In this document: in pieces, positions 40,743 to 50,900 of the stretch
Layout: each line of letters opens with the position of its first letter
Numbering within the stretch: the stretch's first letter is position 1
NCBI GenBank assembly: GCA_022844135.1
Contig: JALHMG010000003.1
Location: forward strand, 62,001-126,000
Origin: Lysobacterales bacterium
GTDB taxonomy: Bacteria; Pseudomonadota; Gammaproteobacteria; Xanthomonadales; SZUA-5
Length of the DNA stretch: 64,000 nucleotides
Reading direction: 5' to 3'
Position numbers and translations under genes: made by a program
The notes under the pieces: generated by a model
What the model was told of the DNA's origin: nothing
Seen by the model: the letters and a program-made list of their open reading frames with translations, nothing else
Databases searched by the model: none

Positions 40743-41321
40743 ATGCCCATCCGTCTCATCGTCGGCCTCGGGAATCCGGGTCGAGAACATGCCGAGCAAC
40801 GGCATAACGCTGGCTTCTGGTTCGCCGATGCCTTGGCGGACAATCTTTCTCTGCGTTTTTCGCTCGAAAGCAAACTCAACGCCGAAGTTGCCCGCCTCAC
40901 TGGTCGCGATGAGCCGCTGTGGCTCGTCAAGCCGACCACCTACATGAACAAGAGCGGCCTCGCAGTCAGCGCGGTTCTCAATTACTACAAAATCGATCCG
41001 GCCGATGCGCTGATTGCGCACGACGAACTGGACTTGCCCGTCGGCGTCGCGCGCTTGAAATTCGACGGCGGCCACGGCGGCCAGAACGGCATCCGCGACA
41101 CCATCGCGCAGCTGGGCCACGGCAAGTTCCATCGGCTGCGTATCGGCATCGGTCATCCGGGGCGCAAGGATCTGGTTACTCCCTGGGTACTCGGCCGCGC
41201 GTCGATAGCAGACGAAAAACTCATTCGCACATCGATTGCCAATGCACTCGATGTGGTGCCGCTGCTACGCGCCGGGCACATCGACAAGGCCACCCAAACC
41301 TTGCACACGCCGCAGCCCTGA
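40743..41321 (+). CDS. pth: Peptidyl-tRNA hydrolase
   Basis: Releases peptides from prematurely dropped peptidyl-tRNAs. 192 residues with LIVGLGNPGREHAEQRHNAGFWFAD (catalytic His in RHNAG), KPTTYMNKSG, HDELDLPVG and GGHGGQNGIRD. The expected neighbour ychF is absent; instead the gene converges with an unknown minus-strand gene 24 bases away. Confidence 0.97.
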   Translation: MPIRLIVGLGNPGREHAEQRHNAGFWFADALADNLSLRFSLESKLNAEVARLTGRDEPLWLVKPTTYMNKSGLAVSAVLNYYKIDPADALIAHDELDLPVGVARLKFDGGHGGQNGIRDTIAQLGHGKFHRLRIGIGHPGRKDLVTPWVLGRASIADEKLIRTSIANALDVVPLLRAGHIDKATQTLHTPQP

Positions 41322-41345: not shown

Positions 41346-42317
41346 CTATGTGACCACGATCGCGATCTGATGCGTACCGGATCGCGTAACGGCCAGCACC
41401 TTGCCGTTCTCAGCGACGCTGGTGATGTCGCCTTGTCCGGCCATGGGAACTTTATGAGCGCCAATCTGCAGGTCGTCTCCGACCATTCGTACGCCATTCG
41501 ATGAAGCGTGACTGTCTCCAGGCCATAGCTCACTCGCCACCGCGTGGAAACTGCTACCGAACGCATCGGCATGGACGAGAAACACCTGATCGCCGGATCG
41601 CGCCAGCCATTCGCCGCTAACAGCCGCCACGCGCGGCGGCGCGATGAATGGACCACCCAGACCACGAAACCGACCGACGCGTGCGACGATGCGTGGACCG
41701 CGACCCGGGACACCATGCCAGCGATCAGCAACCTGCGCCGACAGTTCCGCCTGCGCACGCTCCGGCGGCACCTCCAGCGCAAGCCCTAAGGCGATGCTGT
41801 CGAGATGCCGCGCCACAGCCAGCGCACTAGCGCGATAGTGCGCCAAACCCGAGCGCCATGCCGCCACTTGCCCAGCGCGGAGAAAACTGTCGACATCCGA
41901 AACCGACGTCAACGCCAGCAGGCGCCGATGGAACTCGGGATAACAACCATGATCGGCGACGTGGATGCAGGCATTGGCGAGAGCGGACAAAACCCGTTGC
42001 GGCGATTGCGCCATCAGCCGCGGCGCACGCAACGCTAGCTCGTGCCACAGCGGCACGATCATCGGATAGCGTGCGCCGGCTCCAATGACAGCTTGGCCGA
42101 TCAGCTTCAGGCCAAGCTCGTAGAGCGATTCGAAAAGCTCGCCGAAGACGCCCTCCGGCGCGCCGTTCAGCGCCGATGCCAGCGCATCGACATCGGTTCT
42201 CAAGTACGCCAGAAATGCATCGCTATCCAACGCCGCAAACCGTCGCCGCGCATTTGCGAAACGCGCGTTCAATACGGGGCGGTGGGACTGAAGCCAGGTG
42301 GCGAGTTTGGGGTGCAT
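41346..42317 (-). CDS. Unknown protein in MoxR-like cluster
   Basis: 323 residues, not recognised. The first two thirds look helical (LNARFANARRRFAALDSDAFLAYL, VFGELFESLYELGLKLIGQAV, VLSALANACIHVADHGC). The last third looks beta-rich (FRGLGGPFIAPPRVAAVSGEWLARSGDQVFLVHADAFG; GTHQIAIVVT), possibly a small propeller or beta-sandwich with GPFIAPP and WLARSGDQVFLVHAD as candidate signatures. No signal peptide or membrane segment. It is the last gene of the accessory cluster and starts directly beside an inverted-repeat element. Accessory proteins of this general position occur beside MoxR ATPases. Confidence 0.7.
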   Translation of the reverse strand: MHPKLATWLQSHRPVLNARFANARRRFAALDSDAFLAYLRTDVDALASALNGAPEGVFGELFESLYELGLKLIGQAVIGAGARYPMIVPLWHELALRAPRLMAQSPQRVLSALANACIHVADHGCYPEFHRRLLALTSVSDVDSFLRAGQVAAWRSGLAHYRASALAVARHLDSIALGLALEVPPERAQAELSAQVADRWHGVPGRGPRIVARVGRFRGLGGPFIAPPRVAAVSGEWLARSGDQVFLVHADAFGSSFHAVASELWPGDSHASSNGVRMVGDDLQIGAHKVPMAGQGDITSVAENGKVLAVTRSGTHQIAIVVT

Positions 42318-42501
42318 CTGGTTGTTGGTTGTTGGTTGTTGGTTGCCGCAGCAAAATTGCCATCGTCAATCCCCGCGAAGGCGGGAATCCGGTGAATTCT
42401 TGTCGTGACGCATCGGGCGCAACTATCAAAGCCAAGACGCTGGGTTCCCGCTTTCGCGGGGATGACACAATCATCAACCGCAGAACCAACAACCAACAAC
42501 C
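42318..42501. repeat. Nested inverted-repeat element filling an intergenic gap
   Basis: The element occupies the gap between two minus-strand genes almost exactly. Outer arms: GGTTGTTGGTTGTTGGTT (42320-42337) is the perfect complement of AACCAACAACCAACAACC (42484-42501). Inner arms: a 22-base AATCCCCGCG...GGAATCC copy (42369-42390) pairs with GGTTCCCGCTTTCGCGGGGA (42443-42462), a dispersed repeat type common in Xanthomonadales-like genomes. The right arm ends at the stop codon of the MoxR-like gene. Confidence 0.75.
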
Positions 42502-44067
42502 CTACCCCAACCACCGCAAATAATTCCCATAGCGTTGATGCAGAGACTTCAGCAGCAGCAAATCGTCATGTAACGGGCCATACAACTTTCCGCCCTTGGC
42601 GATCGCCTGAATATGCCGCTCTATCGCTGCCAGCCGCTTGCGCGCCTCCGCAGCGGTGACGCCATCGAGGCCGGCGGCAAGCTCGGCGGCCAGATCGCGC
42701 ACCGGATCGCGACGATCCAGATCGAGTCGGTCGTAGTCGAAGCAACTCTGATCGAACAGCGATCGCAGCCAGCCGATTCGATCGCTCTTCTGCGCCGCAT
42801 TCGCGGGGCTTTGGAAATACGGCGCGTCGAGATCCGCCTTGAGTTTGTCGTGCAACACGAACGGCAGCGTCTGGCGCACATCCTCCAATTCCACCTCGGT
42901 ACTGCCGCGAAAAAAGGCCATCGCCTTGGCGTACACCAGCAGCGTCATCAGATTGCGCACCGATAAGCCGTTGACCGTCTGGCAGCCCAAATCCTTGAGC
43001 CGATCGCGGCCATCGTCCTGGGCGCTGAGCCACGCCCAATCGGTGCCCGCCAGGCGCGCGGTGTCCTTGCTTTTGTACTCGAACTGCTCGCCGGCAAGGT
43101 CGTTGAACTCGAATTGGCTGGCGAAATACTCGATGCGCCGACGCAACGGCTCTGGCAAAGGCATGGCGCGAATGCGTTGGCCGAGCGCCTTGATTTCAGC
43201 CTCGCTGAAGATAATCTCCGGCGGCACGAAATCTTCCGGGCGCGCATCCTCTTCGATACGCGTCAGCAACTCGCCCAAAAAGCGCGGATTGAACGGCAGC
43301 GCCTGCACGATCACATCGATGCGATCGCGCAGCGCTTCGATCACCTGATAGGTGCCGCCGCCCTGATCGTCGTTCGCGGTGAGATACCACGCGGCCGGCG
43401 GGCACTCGTACACCTGGTCGAACAACTCGGCGTAGTTATCGCCCATCAGCGTCAGCAACGCGCTTTGCGTACGCGTCGGGATGCGGTTGTACTCGTCGAC
43501 GATTTTCACGCGCATCGACAGCCAGCTGCGCCATGCGATCCGCACCGCATCGATGCGCTGCGCCGAGACCAAATCGGCCGGCAACGGGCTGCCCAGCAGA
43601 TCGGCTGTGGTCATCTGCGGATGACCACGCTGCATGCCGCGCTTGACCTCGCGGACCGGATAACCGGCCAGCACACCCATCAGCAATGCGCTCGCCGTCT
43701 TGCCGCGCCCAGGCCCGCCGATGAACAAACACTTGCGTTGCGCGGCGAAGGTCAGCAGCGGCAGCAGCACGAAGCTCGAATAGCTCTGCGCGCTCGGCAA
43801 TTTCAGCGCACTTTTGCGATCGCCCAGCGCAAACTCCGCGCCCGGTCCATCGTTGTATTCGATGTCGTAATGCGGGCTGATGATCGCGGTGTTGACGATC
43901 CAGAAGTACGCCTGACGCAACTTCTCATCCAGCGCCGCCGATACCTCAGCCACCGGCGCCGCATCCGCCGGCCCCTGATACAAGGCCGCGACATCGAACT
44001 GCGGCAGCACCGCCGCAGGTTTAGGATTCGTCGGCGCCGCCGACACGCGCTGGAATAGTTTGAACAT
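42502..44067 (-). CDS. MoxR-like AAA+ ATPase
   Basis: 521-residue cytosolic AAA+ protein. Walker A GGPGRGKT at 117-124, Walker B KIVDEYNRIP with Asp191-Glu192, then TQSALLTLMGD and YLTANDD (sensor 1), AL-RDRID (arginine finger region), all in the MoxR pattern. The C-terminal 200 residues are helical and not standard for MoxR. MoxR ATPases usually act as chaperones with a von Willebrand A partner; no vWA gene is seen in this window. It follows the iSTAND-like gene by 64 bases and precedes the unknown gene. Confidence 0.8.
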   Translation of the reverse strand: MFKLFQRVSAAPTNPKPAAVLPQFDVAALYQGPADAAPVAEVSAALDEKLRQAYFWIVNTAIISPHYDIEYNDGPGAEFALGDRKSALKLPSAQSYSSFVLLPLLTFAAQRKCLFIGGPGRGKTASALLMGVLAGYPVREVKRGMQRGHPQMTTADLLGSPLPADLVSAQRIDAVRIAWRSWLSMRVKIVDEYNRIPTRTQSALLTLMGDNYAELFDQVYECPPAAWYLTANDDQGGGTYQVIEALRDRIDVIVQALPFNPRFLGELLTRIEEDARPEDFVPPEIIFSEAEIKALGQRIRAMPLPEPLRRRIEYFASQFEFNDLAGEQFEYKSKDTARLAGTDWAWLSAQDDGRDRLKDLGCQTVNGLSVRNLMTLLVYAKAMAFFRGSTEVELEDVRQTLPFVLHDKLKADLDAPYFQSPANAAQKSDRIGWLRSLFDQSCFDYDRLDLDRRDPVRDLAAELAAGLDGVTAAEARKRLAAIERHIQAIAKGGKLYGPLHDDLLLLKSLHQRYGNYLRWLG

Positions 44068-44131
44068 CGCGGGTTCGCAAACTCAGCATCGACGAGGCGA
44101 CGATAGCGCGCGCTGCGCGTTTTGGGCGGCC

Positions 44132-45487
44132 CTAACCGCTCGCGTCTGGGTTCGCTAACTCGTTCGCGACAGGTGAGCGGCAATTCTCCTGAAAACGCAG
44201 AAGCTCCGGCACTGGCCCCAACTCCTCGATAGCGTGGGCAAGATAACGATCGATATTGTGCCGCTCAGGATCGCCGCGCAATTGATCGATCGAGTTTTGG
44301 ATTCGCATCAGCTTTGCGTGGCGAAGCGCGCGAATGGGCTTCAGCCCGCGCTTTTCTATTCGTGCGGCGGATTGGACCAAGCCACGTTCGGCGAAGAGAT
44401 TGGCTTCGCTGATGCGATGAGATTGCGTCCGGTAAATGATCGCCAAGCCAGACAATGCCCTGACTTCCAATGCATTGGCGCGTTGCAGATTGGCCTTCCA
44501 AATTGCGATAAAGAGTGCCTGCGAACCCTGGTAGTCGCCCTGCGCAAGACGGATTTCTGCGGTTAGCAGCTCTAACATCTGTCGCTCTCGCAATGGGGCC
44601 TTCGATTGATAGCGTAGGCCATGATCCAAGGCCAAAGCTGCATTCGACGGTTGACGATCAGCCAAAAGGTTCTCGCCTAGCTTTCGAGCAACTCGGGACG
44701 CATGTTCAAGATCGACAATTGTCAGCAGATTTCGATACGCAAACACTGCGAACTTGTAAACGAGCAACTCGTCGAAAAGATCTGCGGCTCTGTTGAGTGC
44801 CAGAAGGTCGTCCTCACGATCGATGCCAGCAAATTGGCTGGCCGTAACTGCCAGGCTGCTCGCCAATTCGATTGCTTCAGCAGGATTGCGATGCCGACGA
44901 GCAAGTTCTTCCGCGCGCCTTGCAACTGCAATTAGTCCACCTGGCGTGGCAGAGGGAGCGGTGGCGGAGACAGCAACACCGGTCTGCGGCCCATCCGCCA
45001 CGTCGGCGACACGGCCAGCTTCGGTTGTCGAAACGGCCATGGCGAAACTACGAACTGACCACAGATCCGGTGCGATCGCTCTCACATCACTGTCGTAAGG
45101 ATTGCGCATTGCCAATATCAATAGTCCGCGAACGCGCTTCGATAGCTCGCCACGGCATTCGTTCAGCAACACCAGGAACTTTCGAAGCTCATTCAACCGC
45201 ATCGAGTGCAAGTCGCACCAGATCAATTGCATCGGGCCATTCGCCCGGATTGCGGTCAGCAGCTGCTCGGCACTTGCCCGCCCGCTCGCTCGATGTAAAG
45301 TTGCCAGAGCTCGAGGAATACGAAATTCAAGTTCACCGAACAATCGATGCTGGAACTCCAACATGTCCTTGAACGATTCGCCAAAGACGAATCCAAGCTG
45401 GAACTGACCGACGCCAAATTCGATCCGAGTCAGCAGATCCCGGATCAATTCGTCTGTTTGGTCCTCATTGACCAGCGGCTGGCTCAT
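44132..45487 (-). CDS. Inactive-STAND-like domain fused to TPR repeats
   Basis: 451 residues. The first 155 look like a P-loop NTPase fold without Walker motifs: QLGFVFGES where a nucleotide loop would be, MQLIWCDLHSM in the Walker B place, then LLNECRGELSK and APDLWSVRSFAM (139-150). The APDLWS block recalls the inactive STAND (iSTAND) domains known from bacterial conflict proteins. A Ser/Pro/Ala linker and helical TPR-like repeats (about 185-430) follow. It overlaps the ATPase gene by 23 bases, so the two are probably co-translated partners. The family call is inference. Confidence 0.65.
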   Translation of the reverse strand: MSQPLVNEDQTDELIRDLLTRIEFGVGQFQLGFVFGESFKDMLEFQHRLFGELEFRIPRALATLHRASGRASAEQLLTAIRANGPMQLIWCDLHSMRLNELRKFLVLLNECRGELSKRVRGLLILAMRNPYDSDVRAIAPDLWSVRSFAMAVSTTEAGRVADVADGPQTGVAVSATAPSATPGGLIAVARRAEELARRHRNPAEAIELASSLAVTASQFAGIDREDDLLALNRAADLFDELLVYKFAVFAYRNLLTIVDLEHASRVARKLGENLLADRQPSNAALALDHGLRYQSKAPLRERQMLELLTAEIRLAQGDYQGSQALFIAIWKANLQRANALEVRALSGLAIIYRTQSHRISEANLFAERGLVQSAARIEKRGLKPIRALRHAKLMRIQNSIDQLRGDPERHNIDRYLAHAIEELGPVPELLRFQENCRSPVANELANPDASG

Positions 45488-46739
45488 CGATGATCTGGCT
45501 CAACAGCGGATGCACATCGTACCAGTCGAACCCATTCCGGTAGTTCATCACATACTTGCCGTTCAACAACCGCGCCAGTTCAAGTACCTGATCCCGGGTC
45601 GGTAGATTGCATTGCTTGGTTTTCGCAATGGTCCGAAGCCATTGGATTTCGTCATCCGCCAATGGCAGCAAATCATTGCGGGCATCGCTAAGCACCTTGT
45701 CGATAACACTTTGCGTCAGCGGTGGCTGAAGTTGCCGTGACCCTGCCAACACGGCTGTGTTGCGAACGAGCTTGAAGTATTCGCGCAGATCGCCCCCGGA
45801 CATCAGGGCCAACTGGCTGAGCAGCGGCGATGGAATCAGTTCGAACACATTGGCCTGTCGTGCCTGCGCGATGTCGAGAAGAATCCGAATGCGATCAGGA
45901 TCGGCATGGCCCTCACGAGTTCGCACTCGAATCGTTGGCAGGAACGTAGCGCTGTCCTCTTGCATCGCTGCGCCAACGGCTGAGCCAAGCCAGGGATGGA
46001 CCACAGCAACAGTCTGCACGCCAGCGAATCGAAGCTTGTCGGCGTGCAAACTGAAGAGCATAACGACACTGTCAGCCACGGCCTTCGCGTTGTCGTAGCG
46101 CCCAGACAAACGATCGATCGAGTCCATGATCCACACCACGCGTTTGCACCGCGAGGCGGCTAACTGCTCCACGTAATCGGCTGTCTGGCGCCATACTGCG
46201 TCGATGCGTGCGCGGAGCTTCTCGCGGAGTTTCTCGCGAAAGCTTGGGTTGCTGCGGAACGCGACACCGAATTCAGCCTGAAATCCATCCGGGCCCACGC
46301 CGATCTTGAACTCGCGCTCGACGTCGATCTCGGTTCTTAAGAAGTTGCCAAGCCGTTCAAAAAAGCTGGCGTTCTCTAACTTGAGATGCCCTATCAGTTC
46401 GCTGGCCGCTCCTATCAAGAACTCGCCAATTTCGATGGGTTCGCTGTGCTCGAAGATGCCTTCGAGATTGGTTAGCCAAACTTCGTAGCCATCTTCCTCA
46501 AGCATGGCTTTGAGGCGGAGCAACTCGCTGCTCTTCCCTGTGCCTCGTTGACCGGACACCAAGTGCAATGCCGAACCCTCGGTCTGCCCGAACGAAATGC
46601 CGGTTGCAAGCTGACGAATGGGATCGTCCGCAATTCCGTACTTCTCGCCCATGCCGTAGTAGTTGACGTATCCGGGCTGGTCTGGGCCGATGGCTTGATC
46701 GAGCTGAAGTGCTCGAAAAAGGCTTCTAAAGTCGTTCAC
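45465..46739 (-). CDS. P-loop ATPase, STAND/KAP-like, of accessory cluster
   Basis: 424 residues, first gene of the cluster, GTG start with AAAGGA seven bases upstream. Walker A GQRGTGKS at 63-70 and Walker B VVWIMDSIDRL with Asp206 and Asp209. Other blocks: NYYGMGEKYGIADDPIRQL near the start, SGGDLREYFKLVRNTAVLA (sensor-2/winged-helix-like) and a C-terminal helix-rich part ending WYDVHPLL, typical of winged-helix tails. Base composition of this gene and the next looks clearly lower in GC than the surroundings (one sampled 60-base line is 52 percent). Not assigned to a named system. Confidence 0.75.
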   Translation of the reverse strand: MNDFRSLFRALQLDQAIGPDQPGYVNYYGMGEKYGIADDPIRQLATGISFGQTEGSALHLVSGQRGTGKSSELLRLKAMLEEDGYEVWLTNLEGIFEHSEPIEIGEFLIGAASELIGHLKLENASFFERLGNFLRTEIDVEREFKIGVGPDGFQAEFGVAFRSNPSFREKLREKLRARIDAVWRQTADYVEQLAASRCKRVVWIMDSIDRLSGRYDNAKAVADSVVMLFSLHADKLRFAGVQTVAVVHPWLGSAVGAAMQEDSATFLPTIRVRTREGHADPDRIRILLDIAQARQANVFELIPSPLLSQLALMSGGDLREYFKLVRNTAVLAGSRQLQPPLTQSVIDKVLSDARNDLLPLADDEIQWLRTIAKTKQCNLPTRDQVLELARLLNGKYVMNYRNGFDWYDVHPLLSQIIDEPAAGQ

Positions 46740-46809
46740 GTTCGAATCCTTTTGCTATGAATGTCAGCATAGACCGATCGCTGCTGGTTGAAATGGCGTC
46801 TAACATAGT

Positions 46810-49800
46810 TCAATGAAAATCCCGCGAGCGGATGCCGGTGCCTTCCAGGAGATGCGTGAGGTTATCGAGCCGCTTGGCCAGCAAGTGCGTAACGCCCTCG
46901 GCTTTTTGTAGCTCGCCGGTGACGCCGAGCAGTTGCGATTCGAGGACGACGCGGCGTTCGCGGTCGGCGAGATCGCGCCAGATGATCAGGTTCAGCCAGC
47001 CGCTCTCGTCTTCCAGGGTGACGAACATCACGCCCGAGGCGGTGCCGGGGCGCTGGCGCAGTTTCACGAGGCCCGCCACGCGCATGCGCGTGCCGTGGCT
47101 GGCGGCCATGGCCTCGTCGACGCGACGCATGCGCAACGATTTGAGTTTGCCACGCAGCAGTTTCAGCGGATGGTCGACGAGCGTAAGCTGCGTGCTTTGG
47201 TAGTCGGCGAGCGTGTTCTCGGCGGGCGTCGGCAGCCGCAATTGCGCAGGCTCCTCCTTGATCTGTGCGGATGCCAGAAGTTCGGGCATTTTCTCGATGC
47301 CGGTGACTGCCCATTGCGCACGATGGCGATGTCCGGTCAGGCCACGCAATGCGCCAGCATGGCTCAAGATTTCCAGCTCGGAGCGTTCGAGTTCGGCGCG
47401 CGTGGCGAGATCCTGTACGGACGAGAACGCGCGCTCGCTGCGTGTGGCGATCAGGCGCTGCGCGCTGTCGATTCTAAAGCCCTGGATTTCGCGAAAACCT
47501 AAACGGATCGCGATCTGGCGTTCGTGCTCCAGACTCGCGTCCCAGTTCGAGAAACGCACGTCGATCGGCCGCACCTCCACGCCATGACGGCGCACGTCCT
47601 GGACGATCTGGTCGACCGAATAAAAACCCATCGGCTGCGAGTTGATCAGCGCCACTGCGAATGCCGCCGGGTGATGGCATTTGAACCATGCCGAGGCGTA
47701 CACCAAGAGCGCAAAACTGGCGGCGTGCGATTCTGGGAACCCATAGGAGCCAAAGCCTTTGATCTGCTCGAACACCTGCTCGGCGAAGCTGGTTTCGTAG
47801 CCGCGCTCGGCCATGCCGGCGATGATCCGCTGGCGATAATGTTCAAGCCCGCCGCGGCGCTTCCAGGCTGCCATCGAACGACGCAACTGGTCGGCCTCGC
47901 CCGGCGTGAATCCAGCAGCAACGATGGCGAGCTGCATGACCTGTTCCTGGAAAATCGGAATGCCGAGCGTGCGCTCGAACACGCGCTTTAAGTCCTCCGA
48001 TGGATAGCTGACCGGCTCTAAACCTTGGCGACGCCGCAAATACGGATGCACCATCTTGCCGGTGATGGGGCCGGGGCGAACGATGGCGACTTCGATCACC
48101 AGATCGTAGTAGTTCTCCGGCTTCAGGCGCGGCAGCATCGACATCTGCGCGCGCGACTCGACCTGGAACACGCCCACCGAATCGCTCGTTTGCAGCATCG
48201 CGTAAGTGGCCGGGTCTTCGGCTGGAATCGATGCCAAAGACAGCGGTGCATCGGCTTTGTAGCTGGCGACCAGATCGATGCAGCGGCGCAGACAACTCAG
48301 CATGCCGAGCGCCAGGCAATCGACTTTCAGCAGGCCCAAGGTATCGAGATCGTCCTTGTCCCACTGGATGATGGTGCGATCCGGCATCGCCGCATTTTCC
48401 ACTGGAACAAGCTCGCTCAGCGGGCGCTCGGAAATGACAAAACCGCCGACATGCTGCGAGAGATGGCGCGGGAAACCCAAGAGATCGGCGGTGAGCTTAA
48501 GCAGTTTTTTGATCTTGGCATTCGAGGGATCGAAACCGCGCTCGATCAGGCGCTCCTCCACCGCGCCAAAGCCATCCCACCAGGTCAGCGCGCCGGTGAT
48601 TTCCTCGACCTGATCGATGCTCATACCCAGCGCCTTGCCGACATCGCGCAGCGCGCTCTTGGGCCGATAGCAGGCCACCGTAGCGGTGAGCGCCGCGCGG
48701 TCGCGGCCGTATTTGGCGTAAACGTATTGGATGACTTCTTCGCGGCGCTCGTGCTCGAAGTCGACATCGATATCCGGCGGCTCATTGCGCTCGCGCGAGA
48801 TGAAGCGTTCGAACAGCAAATTGCCGCGCGCCGGATCGACCTCGGTGATGCCGAGCGCGTAACACACGGCCGAATTCGCCGCCGAGCCGCGGCCCTGGCA
48901 CAAGATGCGCCGCAAACGCGCGAACTCGACGATGTCGTGTACGGTGAGGAAGTATGACTCGTACTTGAGATCGGCGATCAGCGTCAGCTCGTGCTCGATT
49001 TGTGCGCGCACCGGCTGAGGCTCGCCGCGCGGCCAGCGACGGCGCAGGCCATCTTCGGTCAAGCGGCGCAAATGCTCGGTGGCCGTGCAGCCGCCGGGCA
49101 CTACTTCATGCGGATACTGATAGCGCAGCTCAGCCAACGAAAAGCGGCAGCGTGCGGCGATACGCAACGTTTCATCGAGCAGCGCCTGCGGATACAGCGC
49201 GCGTAACTGCTGGAGACTGCGCAAATGCTGCTCGCCATTCGATGCCAGATGAAAGCCGGCTTCAGCGACGCTGCTGTGCGCGGCAATCGCCGCGAGCACA
49301 TCGTGCAACGCGCGCCGTCCGCGTACGTGCATCTCGGCGCTGCCGATCGCCGTCAACCGGATATCAAGCGCTTCCGCCAACGCTTGCGCGTACGCCAGCC
49401 GGCGCTCATCGCCATGCTGGCGATGCAGCGCCACGCCAATCCAGCGCTCTGCGAAATGCGCAGCGAGCCAATGGCCGGTGGCGAGCGTCTCGGGCGAGGG
49501 CGCGAGCGGGTCTTCAGCAGGCGGCTCGCCTGGCAGCCAGATCGCCAGCACCCCAGACATCGCTGCCCGCACATCCGCTCGCGTCAGCGCGTACTCGCCT
49601 TTCTCGGCATTGCGCCGCGCGTGCGTGATCAGGCCGCAGATCGCCGTGTAGCCCTCGTGATCAGCCGCAAGCAGCAGCAGCTTGAGCCCGCACGCGAGGC
49701 GAAACTCCGAGCCCAGAATCAAGTGGATGCCGACATCCTTCGCCGCTTCATACGCACGCACCGCACCGGCCATGGTGCACTCATCCGTGATCGCGAGCGC

Positions 49801-49899
49801 CGCATAGCCCAGCTCCTTCGCTCGCACACACAACTCCGCCGCAGTCGATGCGCCGCGCTGAAAACTGAAATTTGAGAGGCAGTGGAGTTCGGCGTACAT
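46810..49899 (-). CDS. dnaE2: Error-prone DNA polymerase DnaE2 (ImuC)
   Basis: C-family polymerase used in damage tolerance. 1029 residues: PHP domain ([34 protein letters not shown]), polymerase core with [19 protein letters not shown] and [18 protein letters not shown], and a C-terminal OB domain ([25 protein letters not shown]). No ribosome site is evident before the ATG. It normally follows imuA and imuB; here lexA and an inverted-repeat element lie directly upstream and imuA/imuB are missing from the window. Confidence 0.95.
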
Positions 49900-49990
49900 G
49901 GCGCATTGCTATTCGCTCGCGGGCTACGCTAAAGCCATGCTCGCCGTCGAAACACTGATGCCCGCCTTAAACGAATGTTGGAGCGATCGA

Positions 49991-50213
49991 CTCAAAGAGC
50001 GAGGGCACGAGAGCACGAGGGCACGAGGGCACGTGCTTCGTTCGAGGCCATCGCATGTAGTGCGTCGCAGACTTTCAACGCCTGAGTTCGAAGGTACCTG
50101 TTGTGACCAGGCGTAATAAGGCCAGGACGATGGTCTTACTGGCAATAACACTGAGCAATTCGAACGAAGCACGTGCTCTCGTGCCCTCGTGCCCTCGTGC
50201 CCTCGCTCTTGAG
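49991..50213. repeat. GAGGGCAC-type inverted-repeat element between lexA and dnaE2
   Basis: Left arm 49991-50045 is built from tandem GAGGGCAC/GAGAGCAC units and ends GTGCTTCGTTCGA. Right arm 50160-50213 is its near-perfect complement (TCGAACGAAGCACGTGCTCT at its start). The arms are about 54 bases each, separated by about 114 bases of non-repeated sequence. The whole lexA-dnaE2 gap (49900-50291) holds nothing else recognisable. It is MITE-sized but no target duplication was identified. Confidence 0.7.
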
Positions 50214-50291
50214 TCATCAAAGTCTTTTCCGTCCTTTCTCAAGTCAATAACTTGATTCCGTCAAAACGGAAGCGCCATCTCTCAGGCACCC

Positions 50292-50900
50292 TCAATACCG
50301 CCGCATCAACCCCACCAGCGCGCCCTGGATCTGCACGCGCGCCGGCGTGTAGCGCTGCACGGGGAAGTTTTGATTTTCGCTGTGCAATTCGATCTCGCCG
50401 CTGCGCCGATACAGGCGCTTCAGCGTGGCGTTTTCGCCATCGATCAGCGCCACCACCACCTCGCCGTTGCGCGCGTTGTCGCGCGGCTCGATGAGCACAG
50501 TGTCGCCATCGAGAATCCCGGCATCGATCATCGAATCGCCGCGCACCTTGAGTGCGTAGCACTCGCCGCGACCGCGAAGGTGCGGCGGCACGGCGATGCG
50601 CTCGTGCCCGGAAATGGCTTCGATCGGTCGTCCGGCAGCGATGCGTCCGAGCAGCGGCACGCTGCCATCGTCGAGCGCCGTTGATGTGAGGCGCACACCG
50701 CGCTGCTTGCCATCCATCGGCGCCACCAATCCGGCATCGATCAATGCCGTGATGTGTTTATGCAATGAACCGCGCGAGGCCAGGCCCAGCTCAGAGCACA
50801 GCTCATCGAGGCTGGGCGCATCGTGTCCCTCGCGCTGGCGCTCGATCAGGTGATCGAGGACGCGCTGTTGTGCATGTGTTAGTGCTTGCATGTTTTCCAT
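50292..50900 (-). CDS. lexA: SOS repressor LexA
   Basis: 202 residues. The winged helix-turn-helix (about 1-70) has APSLDELCSELGLASRGSLHKHITALIDAGLV. The autocleavage site is Ala89-Gly90 (RIAAGRP), the catalytic Ser123 (RGDSMIDAG) and Lys161 (NATLKRLYR). Start ATG at 50900; an ATG three codons in is possible. It is divergent from the mrfA-like helicase with only 43 bases between them, so both probably share an operator. Confidence 0.96.
   Translation of the reverse strand: MENMQALTHAQQRVLDHLIERQREGHDAPSLDELCSELGLASRGSLHKHITALIDAGLVAPMDGKQRGVRLTSTALDDGSVPLLGRIAAGRPIEAISGHERIAVPPHLRGRGECYALKVRGDSMIDAGILDGDTVLIEPRDNARNGEVVVALIDGENATLKRLYRRSGEIELHSENQNFPVQRYTPARVQIQGALVGLMRRY

Follow-up and report, generated by a model that had tools for sequence, protein, structure and literature searches.

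Among described systems, the nearest published kind is the nSTAND2 group of two-gene operons, in which both proteins are built on STAND/AAA+ cores, one of them has eroded NTP-binding motifs and the eroded protein carries a variable C-terminal part; in the sections of Kaur et al. (2021, PMC8195603) drawn on here, the inactive protein most commonly occurs with GT4 or HEPN, and an arginine finger is kept in both proteins. In the MoxR-vWA-iSTAND ternary systems (2020, PMC7159879), by the portion of that paper used, an inactive STAND protein partners a MoxR-vWA couple. In AVAST type 5, as in further STAND defence ATPases made of a single protein, the ATPase itself ends in a C-terminal TPR-type sensor, as set out in part of PMC12931631.

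We analysed a 64,000-nucleotide stretch of a Lysobacterales genome (the window), in which a sequence-only reading had taken four neighbouring genes for a single candidate system, serving conflict or stress, that has two distinct ATPases and lacks a vWA gene. All four minus-strand open reading frames lay where that reading had placed them, with intergene gaps of -23, 64 and 184 bases in order (Table 1). The first two genes, an ATPase and its partner (unit A), and the last two, a MoxR-like ATPase and a protein termed G4 (unit B), are different units, adjacent by chance.

Table 1. Features of units A and B and their surroundings, in window positions
Feature	Position	Strand	Evidence
Unit A gene 1, ORC/Cdc6/STAND-like AAA+ ATPase (predicted), 424 aa, GTG start	45465..46739	-	ORF list, family matches, predicted fold
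Unit A gene 2, degenerate AAA+ (iSTAND-like) and TPR-like helices (predicted), 451 aa	44132..45487	-	ORF, adjacency, conserved residues, fold
Residues 1-157 of gene 2, a predicted degenerate AAA+ domain lacking Walker A	45017..45487	-	AlphaFold2 model, VIA-align 2
APDLWSVR motif (residues 139-146 of gene 2), immediately ahead of strand 5, with R146 as candidate trans arginine finger	45050..45073	-	conservation
TPR-like helical hairpins in residues 180-444 of gene 2, presumably the sensor	44156..44950	-	block pLDDT 39-83; TPR families in relatives
Unit B gene 1, AAA+ ATPase of MoxR type (521 aa), with residues 117-124 as P-loop GGPGRGKT	42502..44067	-	Pfam, relatives
Unit B gene 2, G4 (323 aa), evolving fast and of no known family	41346..42317	-	relatives, identity to sister species
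Variable slot, dnaE2 stop to MoxR start, with unit A inside	44068..46809	-	DNA match to L030
Two 22-base repeats in inverted orientation (3 mismatches), between MoxR and G4	42371..42461	.	window sequence

In the sister species (G001) the gene order was dnaE2, a different gene (which we take to be of NYN type), MoxR and G4, and that species' own ATPase and partner pair was situated on a separate contig. A DNA match between the window and locus L030 ended one base past the dnaE2 stop codon and restarted 2 bases before the MoxR ATG, and the unit A genes had a GC content of 0.564 and 0.555 versus 0.59-0.65 in 14 other genes of the window. This MoxR was found in nine of 101 genomes (the window's own and 100 relatives), seven of which had MoxR and G4 without the ATPase pair. 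Across 369 genomes of the class, MoxR occurred in three and the ATPase in eight, and the window's own genome was the only one with both. Since the sister slot holds another gene, its pair lies elsewhere and MoxR with G4 mostly occurs without the pair, we separated the two units. The flanks of 98 other ATPase loci (a set that includes repeats) gave no match at E<=1e-5 to profiles of the window's MoxR and G4 or of the vWA protein from the same genome, so with these profiles the linkage that characterises MoxR-vWA-iSTAND systems was not seen there. With Pfam AAA_3, in the seven class genomes outside the genus, the nearest MoxR-type gene lay 13.5 kb from the ATPase (G275), and in the others such genes lay on a different contig or at a distance of >90 kb, several contigs being short. 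The shared strand and the short gaps speak for a single four-gene system with two ATPases, and the four families did occur together in one further genome, that of the sister species; however, they are unlinked there, and together with the counts above and a vWA gene in the window's own genome, synteny and co-occurrence led us to reject this candidate as highly improbable. What stands of the proposed conflict system is that the first two genes look like one by themselves. On balance, we think it probable that the cluster combines two unrelated units, a mobile two-gene STAND-type switch and part of a MoxR/G4/zincin-vWA set.

The MoxR-like character of the third protein was borne out by Pfam AAA_3 and AAA_lid_2, both above cut-offs. 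G4, which had been left without a family, had no Pfam match at E<=1 and a single NCBIfam match of 18.3 bits, far under the cut-off of 73.35; its identity to the sister-species protein was 63% versus 95% for MoxR. The vWA gene held to be missing was present in the same genome, on a different contig from MoxR and G4 (G000:C13:94536-96278). It encodes a protein with an N-terminal HEIGHH zincin-like region and an intact-looking MIDAS motif, DSSGS, read in alignment, and its match to VWA_2 was weak (two of eight, best E 0.04). MoxR, G4 and the zincin-like vWA protein occurred together in all nine MoxR-bearing genomes of the 101 (G4 matches at E 1e-5 to 1e-3 in G037 and G043, and a second one in G009, are doubtful). 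MoxR and G4 (41346-44067) thus belong to a MoxR/G4/zincin-vWA set, and by co-inheritance unit B is a MoxR-vWA couple. CoxD-CoxE and RavA-ViaA are reportedly couples of this sort. Unit B resembles them in pairing MoxR with a MIDAS-bearing vWA protein (as far as the part of PMC7159879 used here describes them), but differs in the HEIGHH region, in the fixed third protein G4 and in the radical SAM, AMP-ligase and NadR-like genes found beside unit B in some relatives. The ternary systems of that paper, in the portion used, are similar in having an inactive STAND protein, an ATPase of the MoxR kind and domains for effector or superstructure roles, among which FGS/FGE recur, whereas the inactive STAND protein of the window partners a Cdc6-like ATPase and the MoxR there has its own vWA elsewhere.

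In the first protein, the Walker A motif GQRGTGKS claimed earlier for a P-loop ATPase was located at residues 63-70 (46530-46553). No curated family cut-off was reached: the best Pfam match was AAA_16, with 22.3 bits where 32.6 are required, weak matches across the ATPase family were to AAA_22, AAA_16, ATPase_2, NACHT and ORC-CDC6-like families, and the best 60 of 248 rows of a PDB sequence search were generic P-loop matches. The predicted fold (pLDDT 91.4, pTM 0.91) aligned in VIA with an ORC-Cdc6 entry (one chain, 250 aligned, Z 16.2, rmsd 3.4), with TnsC (Z 15.3), with ORC2 (Z 15.2, 3-394), with Cdc6/Orc1 (Z 14.8, 3-424) and with a CED-4/CED-9 entry (Z 12.7, 16-424); the last three are near-full-chain alignments and place the modelled protein in the STAND/ORC-Cdc6 clade of AAA+. 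The ORC-Cdc6 and TnsC matches could point to a DNA-handling AAA+ pair engaged in TnsC-like targeting or replicon upkeep. Yet resistosomes, CED-4 and NRC, are also among these structural matches, at Z 12-13.5 and along almost the whole chain, no transposase or replication gene belonging to the pair was seen at the loci inspected, and the repeats and TIR, SIR2 and NACHT fusions of the family suit signalling; we judge DNA handling distinctly improbable. The Walker A pattern and D206 were present in 73/73 ATPases and R319, presumably sensor-2, in 72. Within positions 251-264, which we take to be the classical place of the AAA+ arginine finger, R or K reached at most 36 of the 73 ATPases at any one position, and R294, in the lid, was invariant.

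The second protein had been described as an inactive NTPase domain followed by TPRs. It had no Pfam family at E<=0.001, and its N-terminal domain gave no meaningful match in Pfam, NCBIfam or PADLOC and nothing below E 0.1 in a PDB sequence search. The AlphaFold2 model has an alpha/beta domain (block pLDDT >=86 over residues 11-150, except 61-70 with 61) followed by helical hairpins, and in VIA-align 2 residues 1-157 matched NSF D2 (Z 11.5, rmsd 2.9 over 143) and TnsC (Z 11.7, rmsd 3.8 over 149); the structure check suggested earlier therefore predicts an AAA+ fold and not an ordinary TPR protein. Since comparing the profiles of partner domain and ATPase gave no signal, the AAA+ assignment derives from this predicted fold. 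The Walker A pattern was found in 0/71 partner domains, and N109, R112, D141 and W143 were present in 71/71 and R146 in 70. TPR_12 was matched by 57 of 73 partners (among the 25 commonest of 123 families). None of the relatives' TPR families matched the window's own protein, for which the TPR part draws on lower-confidence helices and on the relatives. The models thus support the earlier description.

Searching genome contigs with the ATPase alignment recovered 99 relatives, 80 of which were kept, and the same search with the TPR protein alone confirmed nothing. The partner follows the ATPase at 75 of the 80 named loci (L118, L122 and L147 have the ATPase without it) and at all 14 loci inspected, two of them with a broken partner frame, of which L084 was weakly confirmed by profile (E 1e-6). 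Because contigs L085, L087 and L130 appear identical, by their lengths and the positions of the loci, to those of L029, L076 and L077, the 14 and 80 loci are not fully independent and repeats are included in the 98. The commonest spacing was a 4-base overlap (22/75), approximate as start codons were script-chosen. Among the 369 class genomes, the same eight had both proteins and none had one alone at the limits used; this co-presence is partly circular, the partner profile (A8) having been built beside ATPases in those genomes, whereas the absence in 361 is not. The two proteins co-vary (Mantel Spearman 0.67, with 0/2000 permutations as high). Alignments left out the partners of L083 and L084 (broken frames) throughout, the L084 ATPase (A7), partial partners of <150 aa from L086, L137 and L164 (A9 and A10), near-duplicates L115 and L158 (A10), and, from A11, the ATPases of L104 (a fusion), L145 and L152 (partial) and L112, with the near-duplicates L115, L126, L158 and L160.

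Several members carry exchanged domains. The L109 partner has TIR_2, NACHT and FGE, the L100 partner SIR2_2, nSTAND5 and TPR, and L106 NACHT with a borderline FGE; in L104 the ATPase is fused to AAA_15/21, and cyanobacterial plasmids encode an nSTAND1 and WD40 partner and an ATPase-TIR fusion. On plasmids, unit A has NB-ARC, TIR, NACHT, HicAB and integrase genes as neighbours. Outside defence, unit A could be read as an ordinary regulator, or as a switch in stress signalling, in bacteria with large genomes. Most partners are TPR-only, without an effector, which counts against a conflict switch; some chromosomal copies adjoin housekeeping genes (dnaE2 in the window, and a gene read as tyrS-like beside the C25 copy); and at the search sensitivity used the ATPase was found in 0/50,697 phage records and in no viral contigs. 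These points are set against a patchy spread (8/369 class genomes), multiple copies per genome (three in the window's own, four in G272), plasmid copies (6/72,556 records) and the TIR, SIR2, NACHT and FGE fusions, and we regard a non-defence regulator as unlikely, though deserving serious weight. The four window proteins had one match only in PADLOC-DB 2.0.0 at E<=1 (E 0.086), and no known system. Near the pair, 35 PADLOC families were matched versus five in a control (E<=1e-10; best 25 of the 35; 106 proteins each), a weak enrichment of defence genes, which had been proposed as a check and to which we give little weight as single proteins match several families, no model cut-offs were applied and the control comes from other organisms and itself has a strong Avs3a match (E 4e-88). 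The neighbours were 106 of 327 candidates, nearest first, from open reading frames >=170 aa and <3000 bases; the control was 106 of 117 proteins from relatives in the order.

We infer that unit A acts as a two-gene STAND-type conflict switch with a role in defence. Gene 1 would be the catalytically active ORC/Cdc6/STAND-like ATPase with its P-loop, and gene 2 an adaptor whose degenerate AAA+ domain may dock on it in a mixed AAA+ assembly, probably donating R146 in trans to the ATPase site. As an arginine before strand 5 is kept in the partner and none is conserved in the ATPase, the partner may complete the site, an idea suggested by secondary-structure position. Against it, some STAND ATPases function without a classical arginine finger, and the lid of the ATPase has the invariant R294. 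Sensing of a trigger, most probably a protein of foreign origin, would fall to the C-terminal repeats; the TPR-only form, with no obvious effector domain, might work via the ATPase or on a target encoded by another gene, and in a few members the effector (TIR or SIR2 with a second STAND module) would sit on the adaptor.

Unit A could instead be a TPR-bearing branch of the nSTAND2 family, with which, set side by side by description, it shares the plan of a mobile two-gene operon on (predicted) STAND/AAA+ cores, in which the NTP-binding motifs are intact in one protein but eroded in the other and the eroded protein varies in its C-terminal part; DAP3, a relative named in the part of PMC8195603 used here, was weakly matched by one of 13 ATPases (E 5e-4). 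In those sections of the paper, though, GT4 or HEPN prevails on the inactive protein, whereas unit A has mostly TPRs and sometimes WD40, TIR-NACHT-FGE or SIR2-STAND-TPR, and neither GT4 nor HEPN was found in 13 partners scanned singly (for three of them among the best 25 families). The finger-like arginine is also conserved only in the inactive protein of unit A, the ATPase having no conserved R or K at the classical place, though it does have the invariant R294 in its lid. We hold membership of nSTAND2 to be a minority possibility. Relative to AVAST type 5 (PMC12931631, in part), unit A would divide ATPase and repeat sensor between two proteins, joined on our reading by the degenerate AAA+ domain. 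We found no description of the pair in the main texts of the open-access papers searched, and nSTAND2 may be such a description. More tentatively than the division into two units, we suggest that unit A is an undescribed split immune ATPase, in which the arginine of a dead AAA+ adaptor is needed to complete the site and the adaptor serves as a universal plug linking one Cdc6-like ATPase to TPR, WD40, FGE, TIR, SIR2 and STAND modules; this fuller proposal may well prove wrong.

The comparison corrects a tempting error, as neighbours in a single genome are not the same as a system, and within the cluster there is what looks like a widespread, little noticed two-gene ATPase pair resembling an immune switch. 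If this is true, bacteria of presumably several phyla would carry an immune-type switch whose ATPase and sensor are separate proteins linked through a catalytically dead AAA+ domain, which would explain a set of gene pairs annotated as a hypothetical protein with a TPR protein. It would also offer a simple two-protein system for how inactive STAND domains work, and would show the swapping of sensors and NADase effectors.

The four genes lying between pth and dnaE2 formed two units: an ATPase with its TPR-bearing partner (unit A, genes 1 and 2), and a MoxR-type ATPase with the protein G4 (unit B, genes 3 and 4). The sequence-only reading had called the four reading frames correctly in strand and spacing and had taken them as one conflict or stress system with two ATPases and no vWA gene. 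That interpretation was partly supported: in the sister species (genome G001), the ATPase-TPR pair was on contig C50 and MoxR with G4 on C52, and the window's own genome (G000) possessed a vWA gene, on another contig. In Pfam searches gene 1 gave weak AAA matches and gene 3 MoxR-type matches, gene 2 had no meaningful match and G4 none, and none of the four proteins matched NCBIfam or PADLOC models close to any cut-off.

Coordinates of the genes discussed (G, genome; C, contig; L, locus)
Feature	Location	Strand	Remark
pth	window 40743-41321	+	Pfam domains; flanks the four genes on one side
G4 (gene 4)	window 41346-42317	-	unit B, 323 aa
MoxR (gene 3)	window 42502-44067	-	unit B, 521 aa
Partner (gene 2)	window 44132-45487	-	unit A, 451 aa
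ATPase (gene 1)	window 45465-46739	-	unit A, 424 aa
dnaE2	window 46810-49899	-	Pfam domains; gene name is our reading of the domain set; other flank
Unit B vWA gene, G000	C13:94536-96278		away from MoxR and G4
Unit B vWA gene, G001	C20:55463-57178		away from MoxR and G4
vWA-gene neighbours	L165:6998-10278 (G000:C13), L166, L034, L033, L035, L042

Among the window's genome and 100 relatives, the ATPase and TPR protein were present in two (G000 and the sister species) and MoxR in nine. Of 369 evenly sampled class genomes, three had this MoxR and eight the ATPase, with both only in G000, and profiles of the window's MoxR, G4 and vWA protein had no match in the sequence flanking 98 other ATPase loci. 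The broad MoxR model, Pfam AAA_3, found MoxR-type genes in all nine ATPase-bearing genomes; in the seven outside the genus, the closest such gene was 13.5 kb from an ATPase (G275). DNA comparison gave the order dnaE2, a single 288-aa gene, MoxR and G4 at the sister locus, where similarity on the dnaE2 side (84% identity) ended one base past the dnaE2 stop codon and restarted two bases ahead of the MoxR ATG (85% identity). The two sister species thus differ in the cargo of the dnaE2-MoxR slot, that of the sister (L030:6636-7502) being, by our own reading, presumably an NYN-domain nuclease. GC content was 0.564 and 0.555 in the window's two unit A genes and 0.542 in the sister slot, lower in both cargoes than in the window's MoxR, G4 and dnaE2 (0.62-0.63), and the slot is possibly a small hotspot of accessory genes. 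In window 46810-50900, and likewise in the sister species, a LexA gene was situated upstream of dnaE2 and no imuA/imuB gene was seen between the two, an arrangement that departs from the usual SOS mutagenesis cassette.

Unit A was a real and widespread gene pair. G000 encoded three copies (on C3, C25 and C68), each with the ATPase followed by a partner, and the three partners shared the N-terminal domain and differed in the length of their TPR-like repeats. Read from ORFs, a partner followed the ATPase at 14 of 14 loci; two of these partner frames were broken, both in the fragmented genome G272, and the broken partner at L084 matched the domain profile at just E 1e-6. A scan of named genomes returned 99 relatives, of which 80 were kept; by record title these belonged to Gamma-, Beta- and Alphaproteobacteria, Desulfobacterota, Myxococcota, Acidobacteriota, Planctomycetota, Fibrobacteres and one actinobacterium. 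Carriers include two cultured environmental strains, Zoogloea ramigera NBRC 15342 (L160) and Rheinheimera sp. A13L (L161). The partner came directly after the ATPase in 75 of these loci; among the other five, the contig ended at L104, a stretch of N interrupted L112, and no partner was seen at L118, L122 and L147. Any overlap between the two genes occurred in 51 of the 75, with a 4-base overlap the commonest spacing (22/75). Within the class sample the partner domain was found in the same eight genomes as the ATPase and no others, a match that is partly circular because the profile was built from ATPase-adjacent partners in those genomes. Distances among ATPases and among partner domains were correlated (Spearman 0.67, 67 pairs; reached by 0 of 2000 permutations, highest 0.23), and part of this signal can come from shared descent.

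The structural model of the ATPase was confident (pLDDT 91.4, pTM 0.91), and its predicted fold belongs to the ORC/Cdc6/STAND clade: VIA-align 2 matches included one chain from a Drosophila ORC-Cdc6 entry (Z 16.2, rmsd 3.4, 250 residues), TnsC (Z 15.3, rmsd 4.7, 285 residues), archaeal ORC2 (Z 15.2, rmsd 4.6, 269 residues) and, over nearly the full chain, the NRC4 resistosome (Z 13.5, rmsd 5.0, 280 residues) and a CED-4/CED-9 entry (Z 12.7, rmsd 5.3, 279 residues). For the partner, whole-chain values were lower (pLDDT 70.1, pTM 0.43); block pLDDT was at least 86 over residues 11-150, bar 61-70 (61), with lower values beyond. Residues 1-157 aligned in VIA-align 2 with TnsC (Z 11.7, rmsd 3.8, 149 residues), NSF D2 (Z 11.5, rmsd 2.9, 143 residues) and Cdc6/Orc1 (Z 11.1, rmsd 4.5, 150 residues); the top row, AVAST5, was unreliable (Z 11.8, rmsd 18.7). 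The best Foldseek match, at E 6.8e-4, was an ORC-complex chain, for which the TM scores over the whole chain were low, and neither a PDB sequence search nor profile comparison with the ATPase gave sequence-profile support to the AAA+ assignment. Since the second protein is predicted to begin with an AAA+ domain, it is not an ordinary TPR protein, and its earlier description as an inactive NTPase domain followed by TPRs is supported; a Walker A pattern occurred in none of 71 aligned partner domains.

In the partner domain, N109, R112, D141 and W143 were invariant across the 71 aligned rows, and R146 was present in 70 of them. R146 lies between helix 140-144 and strand 148-152 of the model, the place of the arginine finger in AAA+ proteins. 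The ATPase kept its P-loop in 73 of 73 rows; also kept were D206 and R319, the latter presumably part of a sensor-2-like GG-x-x-R motif. Between strands 4 and 5 of the ATPase (residues 251-264), R or K reached at most 36 of the 73 rows in any column; the invariant R294 lay further along, in the lid. On position and conservation, the simplest reading is a mixed assembly of ATPase and partner, where the dead domain would complete the live site.

Unit B is probably a new MoxR-vWA set of narrow spread. In five relatives (G004, G008, G009, G020, G094) the order was MoxR, G4 and a gene for an approximately 600-aa protein, which carried a HEIGHH motif in its N-terminal part and DSSGS in a vWA-like C-terminal region; in two further relatives DSSGS was replaced by DCSGS. 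Pfam saw the vWA part weakly (2/8, best E 0.04) and had no match to the zincin-like part. The vWA protein was found in 10 of the 101 genomes, including all nine with MoxR, and G4 in the same ten (E 2e-17 or better); the tenth, G003, was 86% complete and gave no MoxR match. MoxR lay on a different contig from G4 and the vWA gene in G002 and G007. This co-retention of the three genes, even where unlinked, argues for one function. Near the vWA gene were a radical SAM gene (G000, G001, G009), a 207-aa gene without a recognised family (G000, G001, G009, G002, G020, G094), an AMP-binding ligase with a weak DVU_1553 family match (G001, G002, G009, G020, G094) and a NadR-like gene (G009, G020, G094); the MoxR-vWA couple may use these in a maturation or peptide pathway that it drives. 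This MoxR was confined to the same order in our samples (3/369 class and 3/349 phylum genomes), and G4 was fast-changing, with 63% identity to the sister species versus 95% for MoxR. The MoxR-G4 gap measured 184 bases in the window, 474 in the sister, 241 in G008 and -4 to 1 in G004, G009, G020 and G094. In the window it held an inverted pair of 22-base repeats with three mismatches (42371-42392 and 42440-42461), REP-like in look, whose 17-base core had a single exact occurrence in the genome.

Several features argue for a conflict role for unit A. The partner's C-terminal part was swapped among members: it was mostly TPR (TPR_12 matched in 57 of 73), and the alternatives included TIR_2, NACHT and a C-terminal FGE-sulfatase domain (L109:7316-10702), SIR2_2 with nSTAND5 and TPR (L100), NACHT with a borderline FGE (L106) and, on cyanobacterial plasmids, nSTAND1 with WD40, and WD40. 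In Archangium violaceum (L104:5977-8046) the family ATPase was fused to a second ATPase of AAA_15/AAA_21 type, ended by the contig edge. A Calothrix plasmid (L172:6881-10336) encoded two family ATPases in tandem, the second with a C-terminal TIR, and then a WD40 protein, which is another layout of the unit A system. The ATPase occurred on six of 72,556 plasmid records, two typed as conjugative; the next gene matched the partner profile in five of the six, and NACHT, NB-ARC, TIR, HicAB, CHAT-STAND and integrase genes surrounded some copies. TIR, NACHT and FGS domains also belong to the repertoire of the conflict systems set out in PMC7159879 and PMC8195603. Against such a role count the lack of an effector domain in most members, the absence of the ATPase from the phage records and viral contigs searched, and a weak result in a PADLOC test of the neighbours.

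Judged by its published description, the nearest known system is nSTAND2, which section 15 of PMC8195603 presents as a mobile two-gene operon pairing an active STAND with an inactive one; the latter most commonly bears GT4 or HEPN, and both proteins have an arginine finger. Going by that section, unit A has the same two-gene plan, whereas its cargo differs and, as far as can be told, so does the finger. Unit A and the MoxR-vWA-iSTAND ternary systems, as outlined in section 20 of PMC7159879, have in common the concept of a sensor with an inactive STAND, whereas the partner is different. Because it shares its plan with nSTAND2 and differs in cargo and apparently in finger, unit A reads as a variant of a known two-gene STAND kind, and the part of real interest is this two-gene switch, which the sequence-only reading had taken for no more than one half of a bigger cluster.
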